Made by a program: the position numbers and the translations under genes
Origin: a virus
IMG/VR virus record: IMGVR_UViG_3300007276_000405
Location: 1-20,372 of that record
Length of the DNA stretch: 20,372 nucleotides
Strand: one strand, 5' to 3'
Shown here: positions 4,862 through 6,487 of the stretch, piece after piece
Layout: each line of letters starts with the position of its first letter
How positions within the stretch are numbered: position 1 is the stretch's first letter
The notes under the pieces: generated by a model
Database searches by the model: none
What the model saw: the letters and a program-made list of their open reading frames with translations, nothing else
Told to the model about the DNA's origin: nothing

Positions 4862-4913
4862 TAAAAAACCCCACAAGGTTGCGCTTCTACGATAGGCGTG
4901 TGGGGTGTGTTTT
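4862..4913. terminator. Bidirectional hairpin terminator between convergent units
   Basis: CCCCACA (4869-4875) pairs perfectly with TGTGGGG (4899-4905). Within the 23-base loop CGC (4882-4884) can pair with GCG (4896-4898). On the minus strand the stem is followed by a T6 tract (A6 at 4863-4868), a textbook Rho-independent terminator for the late unit ending in pqqA. On the plus strand the stem is followed by TGTGTTTT, a weaker tract. A separate 6-bp hairpin (TTATTG/CAATAA, 4849-4864) abuts it without its own T tract. Confidence 0.85.
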
Positions 4914-4937: not shown

Positions 4938-5009
4938 TTACTTATTCATTACGTACATTGTAACTTCAAAACCGAAACGCATTTCAGTAGCTGCTGGTGA
5001 TGTCCACAT
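4938..5009 (-). CDS. pqqA: PqqA, pyrroloquinoline quinone precursor peptide (phage-encoded)
   Basis: This 23-codon ORF has AGGAG at 5016-5020, 6 bases before ATG 5009. The peptide begins MWTSPAATEMRFG, continues FEVTMYV and ends MNK. This matches the PqqA pattern MW-x2-P...R-x-G-(F/L)-E-V-T-x-Y at the usual 23-residue length. Glu15 and Tyr19 are the pair that host PqqE (radical SAM, with chaperone PqqD) crosslinks and that ends up as the PQQ skeleton. PQQ is the redox cofactor of periplasmic methanol, alcohol and glucose dehydrogenases. Each PQQ consumes one PqqA, so extra peptide could raise supply without phage-borne pqqBCDE, none of which is seen here. It is the last late gene, just before the terminator. 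The motif match is strong for so short an ORF; action in the host is inferred. Confidence 0.88.
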   Translation of the reverse strand: MWTSPAATEMRFGFEVTMYVMNK

Positions 5010-5028
5010 AATATTCTCCTAGAATTAG

Positions 5029-5077
5029 TACGCAATCTGCGTATATTTATAATGCGCCAGATATTAAATAAGCGCAT
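5029..5077 (-). promoter_or_regulatory. Leader of pqqA with two hairpins
   Basis: The 79-base gap between the small acidic gene and pqqA contains two perfect inverted repeats. TACGCA/TGCGTA (5029-5034 and 5038-5043, 3-base loop) lies 8 bases upstream of the pqqA ribosome-binding site. ATGCGC/GCGCAT (5052-5057 and 5072-5077, 14-base loop) lies farther upstream. Neither is followed by a T tract on the minus strand, so they look like RNA stabilising or processing structures rather than terminators. A TATAAA at 5045-5050 region without a clear -35 box leaves a separate promoter possible but unproven. Confidence 0.5.
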
Positions 5078-5088
5078 CAGGAAAATCA

Positions 5089-5262
5089 TTAATTGTCATA
5101 GCGATCTGTTTCAATATACATGTGAAGGTCGTCACCTTCTATGCTAATAGTGCCACGATTTGTGCTGATATAAATTACTTCGTCATCAGGATCAATTTCA
5201 ATACCCTCAAGCTCTGAGCCTAGCATCATATTGCATAGGTCATACATATCTTTTTCAGCCAT
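5089..5262 (-). CDS. Small acidic protein, 57 aa
   Basis: The ATG at 5262 overlaps the stop of the metallophosphoesterase gene (TAATG), indicating coupled translation. The product is acidic, with a helical N-terminus (MAEKDMYDLCNMMLGSELEG) and then alternating beta-like strands (IEIDPDDEVIYIST, RGTISIEGDDLHMYIETD). No family is recognised. It lies between the phosphoesterase and pqqA near the end of the late unit. Confidence 0.75.
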   Translation of the reverse strand: MAEKDMYDLCNMMLGSELEGIEIDPDDEVIYISTNRGTISIEGDDLHMYIETDRYDN

Positions 5263-6023
5263 TAGTAATTATACCTTTCTTTTAAGAAGCGAATTGAAAC
5301 GGCCATCTCATCAAAGCTACCATCATTAACTTCATGTAATACATAGAAGCCACGATAGTGCTGGTTACCTTGTGAGCCTAGATAGTCTTCATGATGTTCA
5401 TAGAAGCTACCACATATTATAGCTGTCATCTCTTTGCCGTCAGCTCTTTTACCATAGGCAATATTTCTACCCTGTTGGTGGCCAGCAAAGCATGACATGT
5501 GCTTCTTGTTTAGTATCGCTTGAGCAGTAGTGACAGGTCTTCCCATAGGACCGCTAGTAAAATAATGGGAATAAGCAACGCCATCAATAACAACAACGTC
5601 AAGGAAAGGATGAACTTCCCAGTCTTGGTACGGCAGATCATTGGTAGATATAAGTCCATCAAGTTTTCTGTCTTCATTTATTGCTCGGTTGATTCTGTTC
5701 TCGTGATTGCCTAGTGTCATTACTAATCTAGGTTTATACTTTTTCTTTTTATGTATTTTAGCATGCTTATTGTGTTCAAAGAGTGGTACCAAGAGCGCAT
5801 CCATGGCCTCTCTAGCAGCCCAAATATCTTTCTGGTAGCTACGCCCTTCAAAGGATTTCAATCCTCTGTCATAGGTGCTTAAAGATTCCATGTCAGCGAA
5901 GTCGCCAATGCAAACAATTACATCTGGCTTCTTTTCAATAATGTAATTGCCTAAACATTTTAGAAATGTGAAATCGTTTCCGTCTTTAGCCTGAACGTCA
6001 GGTATTACTAAGTGTGTCGTCAT
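5262..6023 (-). CDS. Calcineurin-like metallophosphoesterase
   Basis: The 253-aa product shows the metallophosphoesterase motifs in order: DVQ (Asp9, Gln11 in place of the usual His), GDFAD (Asp41), GNHEN (Asn106, His107), His153 in SHYF, and GHQQ (181-184, Gln in place of the final His). These residues bind a di-metal centre that hydrolyses phosphomonoesters or diesters. Gln variants are seen in phage members. The substrate is unknown; nucleic acid, cyclic nucleotides and other phosphates are all possible. It follows the endolysin gene after 32 bases, in which a hairpin (6029-6044) includes the only AAGGA-type binding site. Confidence 0.9.
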   Translation of the reverse strand: MTTHLVIPDVQAKDGNDFTFLKCLGNYIIEKKPDVIVCIGDFADMESLSTYDRGLKSFEGRSYQKDIWAAREAMDALLVPLFEHNKHAKIHKKKKYKPRLVMTLGNHENRINRAINEDRKLDGLISTNDLPYQDWEVHPFLDVVVIDGVAYSHYFTSGPMGRPVTTAQAILNKKHMSCFAGHQQGRNIAYGKRADGKEMTAIICGSFYEHHEDYLGSQGNQHYRGFYVLHEVNDGSFDEMAVSIRFLKERYNY

Positions 6024-6055: not shown

Positions 6056-6487
6056 TTACTTATACACCTTTACGCCAGACTTGTCAATAATCATCATTTG
6101 TCTTCTTGGTTTAGCACCAGCTTCAGCGAAGCCAATGTGAATCCATGAATCAAATTCTAATATAAGCTGATCAAACTCTATGCTTGAATCTGCTAATGCT
6201 CGCATGACTTCTGGCACTGTACCAAACCTTGGGCAAGTAAAGTCAGCAGCCAATCCTTTAACATGGTATGAAGTGTCCCTGCTTTTCAATGCACGGTTGA
6301 GCTTCAAACACCGATAGCCACTAGAAACTTTAATTGGATTGCTATATAGCTTCGCTCTTACAGCTTCTAATCCGTTAGCTAGTATCTCTAGGTTGGCCAG
6401 TGCTTCTGGTGTGGGTATGTTGTCAATGTCTAATCTGATTGCTGTGTTGCTAAATATTAATTCTTCTAAACTAAAGTGTGGTGTCAC
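6056..6487 (-). CDS. M15-family peptidase, probable endolysin
   Basis: The 143-aa product has the peptidase M15 (D-Ala-D-Ala carboxypeptidase / L-Ala-D-Glu peptidase) zinc site: His75 in SYHVKG, Asp82 in LAADF, and Glu111 plus His117 in LEFDSWIHIGF. The N-terminal PHFSLEELIFSNTA and SSGYRCLKLNRAL segments are also typical of phage M15_3 lysins. It would cleave peptidoglycan peptide crosslinks at lysis. The start is GTG at 6487, overlapping the holin stop (GTGA), which agrees with the expected N-terminus. There is no signal peptide, so release depends on the holin encoded just upstream. Confidence 0.93.
   Translation of the reverse strand: MTPHFSLEELIFSNTAIRLDIDNIPTPEALANLEILANGLEAVRAKLYSNPIKVSSGYRCLKLNRALKSRDTSYHVKGLAADFTCPRFGTVPEVMRALADSSIEFDQLILEFDSWIHIGFAEAGAKPRRQMMIIDKSGVKVYK

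Follow-up and report, generated by a model that had tools for sequence, protein, structure and literature searches.

Phages can place a metabolic gene under the operator of a host regulator, as cyanophages do with auxiliary genes controlled by host PhoB through the pho box. For pqqA, the available passages of a 2020 study describe a T4-like viral population from Lake Baikal, VP_266, that encodes PqqA together with methanol dehydrogenase (PMC7678222), and viruses of reservoir sediments carry pqqA, pqqE and pqqD (PMC13188868). Viral pqqA, whose novelty the original prediction for the present locus had left open, was therefore already described. On the host side, Methylophilaceae have 3–12 pqqA genes yet one pqqBCDE set (PMC4109929). 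Phage P19250A is said in the same passages of the Baikal paper to have none of its reported genes (PMC7678222), and pqqA is not reported in the passages searched of the papers on MEP301, MEP401/402 and Melnitz.

The stretch analysed here (the window) is a viral record of 20,372 bases, probably a fragment (20 kb). Its pqqA and the surrounding features all lie on the minus strand:

4863..4905, minus strand: terminator-like hairpin CCCCACA...TGTGGGG then TTTTTT, from the predicted fold, downstream of pqqA
4938..5009, minus strand: pqqA ORF, 23 aa, MWTSPAATEMRFGFEVTMYVMNK; PQQ precursor peptide with crosslink residues Glu15 and Tyr19
5016..5020, minus strand: Shine-Dalgarno sequence AGGAG
5029..5043, minus strand: stem-loop TACGCA-GAT-TGCGTA at the predicted 5' end of the pqqA mRNA
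5046..5051, minus strand: -10 box TATAAA of the inferred promoter, 42 nt from the operator start; predicted transcription start at about 5039-5040
5072..5093, minus strand: host-type pqqA operator ATTAATGATTTTCCTGATGCGC, 24.3 bits with the viral pqqA motif (next best in the window 12.7)
5089..5262, minus strand: 57-aa ORF upstream of pqqA, function unassigned, no PHROG match; its stop codon lies inside the pqqA operator
5262..6023, minus strand: metallophosphoesterase (phrog_221, PF00149), used as anchor for collecting related phages
6056..6487, minus strand: M15 peptidase endolysin (PF08291, phrog_894), 65% identical to that of Methylophilales phage MEP301
6484..6888, minus strand: holin (phrog_3427)

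Translation of the minus strand closes the pqqA frame at a stop codon (MWTSPAATEMRFGFEVTMYVMNK*), and the residues put forward in the original prediction, which had not given the strand, are each found in the peptide (W2, P5, R11, G13, E15 and Y19). Its claim of PqqA identity is borne out by profile searches, where the peptide exceeded the curated thresholds of both PF08042 (37.9 bits, E 1.7e-9; cut-off 21.1) and the equivalog TIGR02107 (34.4 bits, E 1.4e-8; cut-off 20). The E-x-x-x-Y motif whose Glu and Tyr become PQQ is present as E15-VTM-Y19, and the length of 23 aa falls among the short peptides of the family (about 23-29 aa) with their own ribosome-binding site; the near-ideal Shine-Dalgarno sequence that had been claimed is the AGGAG listed above, and a similar motif occurs in 150/156 viral pqqA leaders. 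No PHROGs family matched the ORF. A chance ORF would show neither such profile scores nor conservation across dozens of diverged relatives.

The late block on the minus strand runs holin, M15 endolysin, phosphoesterase, 57-aa ORF, pqqA and terminator. A simple terminator scan overlooked the hairpin at 4863-4905 because of its long loop. For positions 4868-4905 (minus strand) the Rfam abiF model gave 29.7 bits, short of its threshold of 37 and probably no more than a resemblance between hairpins; no Rfam model was matched above threshold. As had been predicted, a profile search of the window found no PqqE alongside pqqA; a PQQ dehydrogenase was likewise not found in this 20-kb fragment, whose tail proteins are podovirus-type. 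The gene is virus-encoded (holin, endolysin and tail genes flank it), host-like and of neither virion nor replication function, and it also lies inside complete cultured phage genomes. From sequence, we regard it with good confidence as a genuine pqqA that phages infecting Methylophilaceae carry as an auxiliary metabolic gene, in a small stand-alone, host-regulated unit.

Viral pqqA genes were collected with a degenerate DNA pattern and with the neighbouring phosphoesterase as anchor. The pattern scan of IMG/VR gave at least 120 viral contigs, each with one intact pqqA ORF; for the most part, the viral contigs are genome fragments. Among phosphoesterase relatives chosen irrespective of pqqA and having at least 4 kb downstream, 34/43 carry it. 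PF08042 had no match in the records of 17 phosphoesterase relatives, some of them short fragments, so pqqA is not essential to the lineage of the window phage; L123 and L141, among others, are close relatives whose records contain no pqqA. Glu15 and Tyr19, expected to be kept in related phages, were absent from no relative among the pqqA-independent loci, the scan itself having used that motif. In a tblastn search of a phage collection, all nine recovered Methylophilales/Methylophilaceae phages matched (P19250A, MEP301, Venkman, MEP401, MEP402 and four Melnitz), a count that covers the phages recovered and not MEP431-434, Venkman EXVC038S, HIM624-A or phiMB624-A. Among the other ~50,700 phage records, matches were confined to a spring podovirus, two bacterial contigs that are mislabelled and one record hit by chance. 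'Acinetobacter phage MD-2021a' (CAKLQF020000010.1) was rejected as a bacterial contig with ppk then a complete pqqBCDE, and the match in Escherichia phage ERS-1 as chance, since it sits within a longer frame. Carriers are diverse, including short-tailed phages, P19250A and the T4-like Melnitz. The pqqA of cultured relatives is unannotated or 'hypothetical' in their records; five phage records among the tblastn matches have no feature at the ORF, in keeping with the expectation that annotation pipelines would miss it. In the P19250A record (KX815270) an intact ORF, MWTTPAATEMRFGFEVTMYVMNK, lies unannotated at 28085-28153.

PqqE was found in 0/43 viral pqqA records and a PQQ alcohol/methanol dehydrogenase in 1/43, the host control being positive in both searches. 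The single case (L026, in a 72-kb record, G318) has, besides pqqA, the dehydrogenase at about 34.0-35.7 kb and resembles the Baikal case. Thirty viral contigs (L330-L359) encode a second peptide class, DLRFGFEITMYIANR, and one (L329) an alpha-type peptide, EICLGMEVTSY; none of these contigs has PqqE over the cut-off. Judged by their peptides, these classes suggest phages of other PQQ-making hosts.

The original prediction had also implied a PQQ-making methylotroph as host, and this fits our comparisons. The peptide pattern matched genome contigs titled Methylophilaceae or broader betaproteobacterial or unclassified metagenome bins, and cultured Methylophilales phages carry pqqA. The two peptide forms most frequent in phages have identical counterparts in hosts; no sampled host had the S4 form of the window. 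A distinction between K4 (host) and T/S4 (phage) was rejected, as both forms occur in hosts. Because near-identical peptides occur in Methylophilaceae genomes, the host of the window phage is very probably a Methylophilaceae methylotroph. PqqA was present in 100/100 Methylophilaceae genomes at 1-12 copies, and PqqA-bearing others of the same order have mostly 1-3. Nucleotide sequences shared between hosts and phages are few, with exact matches for 5/143 distinct viral pqqA sequences.

Host pqqA genes have an operator, TCATGAAATTCATTAG-N6-TTCATGA, at fixed spacing from a -10 box, and the window operator has the same core. The form nTCATGAAatTCaTTAG-N6-TTCATgA was found in about 95% of 100 dereplicated host pqqA upstream regions (0.1-0.3% in shuffles), with the -10 box at 61 nt from the operator in 40/60. 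Across the Methylophilaceae genomes (G001-G101), the scattered pqqA copies, 1-12 in each, lie under this common strong operator. By coordinates, 20 of the 28 distinct exact-core sites in seven host genomes are just upstream of a pqqA. In two hosts (L388 and L389; G005:C1:1088707 and G008:C3:25301) the core lies upstream of orthologous genes for a predicted secreted glycine-rich protein, possibly a second target of the candidate regulator. We do not claim a wider methanol regulon, the sites at the methanol dehydrogenase genes of one host being weak.

The operator motif came to notice by visual inspection, and a subsequent test on held-out halves recovered the viral motif in 83-88% of upstream regions vs 1.6-2.6% in shuffles. 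Trained on hosts, the motif scored at least 9 bits upstream of 25% of the phage pqqA genes (n = 114) vs 0/2000 other phage genes; the phage version, aTTAATGATTTTCnnTAt, was present in 91% of phage pqqA upstream regions vs 1.5% for other phage genes. Promoters were not in excess in a plain sigma-70 scan; a signal emerged only once the operator was taken into account. The host-type operator stands before about 85-90% of phage pqqA genes, and after it come a -10 box and, at the predicted 5' end, a stem-loop. The phage -10 box lies mainly 39-42 nt from the operator, with a minority at 61-63. In the window the TCATGAAATTCATTAG-like operator is followed by a -10 box at 42 nt, the phage form, vs 61 nt in hosts. 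This difference, about two helical turns, would fit an activator acting on the same face of the helix.

With the transcription start placed 7 nt after the -10 box, a stem of 5 bp or longer beginning no more than 3 nt from the start was found in 28/64 viral leaders, compared with a mean of 4.4 (maximum 9) in shuffles and at most 10 at shifted positions. Compensatory changes affect 4/7 pairs in 14 leaders, whose covariation score was attained by 0/500 shuffles; as this set was chosen for having the hairpin, it speaks for maintenance of the pairs, not for prevalence. The 3' flank of phage pqqA is also structured (mean z -3.0).

These features suggest how the gene may act. During infection the host pqqA regulator and host RNA polymerase would transcribe it into a short, stabilised mRNA with a 5'-terminal stem-loop, a strong Shine-Dalgarno sequence, 23 codons and a terminator. 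As extrapolated from the PqqA family, the phage peptide would be crosslinked between Glu15 and Tyr19 by PqqD/PqqE of the host, whose enzymes would then complete PQQ. Because one PqqA is consumed per PQQ, the phage would provide only the consumable part and lean on the host for catalytic enzymes, and PQQ-dependent methanol oxidation would be kept supplied with cofactor. We tentatively propose that unrelated methylotroph phages share pqqA as a mobile unit under host regulation (operator, -10 box, mRNA-capping stem-loop, 23 codons and terminator), which would tie precursor supply to host control of methanol oxidation and would be near-universal because precursor limits energy supply during infection. 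A raised PQQ supply is a plausible benefit of such a unit. Hosts already carry 1-12 pqqA copies, however, so that precursor may not be limiting. In Acetobacter pasteurianus, overexpression of pqqAB raised PQQ only 29% and that of pqqABCDE eightfold (PMC7936290). The case for an effect of pqqA dosage is indirect and mixed.

The phage gene could instead replace host supply: if infection silences or destroys the DNA and transcripts of the host, phage pqqA might only hold PQQ synthesis at the normal level. We consider this quite possible, if doubtful, since supplying the precursor alone fits replacement as well as boosting and a short, hairpin-bounded mRNA could be stable, but a host-type operator implies that the regulator and polymerase of the host must still function.

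Another account, that pqqA is just the final gene of a late operon expressed by read-through, builds on the original prediction, which placed it last in the late unit before the terminator. That position holds in the window, where pqqA follows the 57-aa ORF by 79 nt on the same strand and the terminator comes next, and the upstream gene is on the same strand in 61/124 viral loci. The gene is not merely an operon tail, however: it has its own operator and -10 box, and in 59/124 loci the upstream neighbour is on the opposite strand, which argues for a self-contained unit. In Venkman, pqqA adjoins early genes. We therefore think read-through by itself unlikely, and phage pqqA is best read, from its arrangement across these loci, as a self-contained, host-regulated unit and not just the last late gene; in the window, where it is also last in the late block, its own promoter and read-through may act together.

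Far less probable is that the locus works as DNA or RNA, the operator titrating a host activator or the hairpin-headed RNA regulating host pqqA mRNAs, with the peptide incidental. The high recurrence of operator and 5' hairpin and the very short transcript would suit this, but a single operator would compete poorly against several host copies, and the codons themselves are constrained. In the phosphoesterase-anchored loci, which were not chosen via pqqA, the overall pN/pS is 0.18, falling to 0.075 among close pairs; the larger viral set gives 0.13, a biased value since it was mostly gathered with a motif covering codons 10-19. R11, G13, E15, T17 and Y19 are invariant in the sampled sequences, most of which were collected with a motif spanning those residues. 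To judge from these ratios, selection on pqqA codons is strong and purifying, and synonymous change is free. That pqqA is a functionless passenger, a host gene captured recently and repeatedly with its promoter, is the least credible account, because the peptides identical to host ones, the five exact nucleotide matches and the many small host units available for capture are set against its presence in diverse phage types and most phosphoesterase relatives, its many diverged alleles with low pN/pS, and a phage operator spacing of 39-42 nt vs 61 nt in hosts.

By its distribution, the gene for the consumable PQQ precursor, too short for most pipelines, seems to be common among viruses of abundant aquatic methylotrophs, and the published statement on P19250A is revised by the intact pqqA in its record. 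P19250A, MEP301, Venkman, MEP401/402 and Melnitz are culturable phages for a direct test of the proposed host-regulated unit, and the operator common to host and phage pqqA points to a regulator of PQQ synthesis.

Compared with the systems introduced above, the window phage resembles VP_266, as portrayed in the available passages, in encoding a PqqA predicted to serve PQQ in Methylophilaceae (PMC7678222). VP_266 is T4-like with its own methanol dehydrogenase, whereas the window phage has a podovirus-type tail and none was found in its 20-kb fragment; those passages do not mention a promoter element (PMC7678222), and host-type regulation of phage pqqA appears to be the new part of the finding. 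The additional, solitary pqqA genes on Methylophilaceae chromosomes (PMC4109929) share with the phage gene the peptide, the operator and the form of a short stand-alone unit apart from pqqBCDE. Chromosomal pqqA differs in its operator to -10 spacing of 61 nt and an extra half-site, the phages having mainly 39-42 nt. By analogy with the cyanophage pho-box system, the operator of a host regulator would control a phage gene here too, although regulator and pathway are different and the product is a consumed peptide here and an enzyme or binding protein there.
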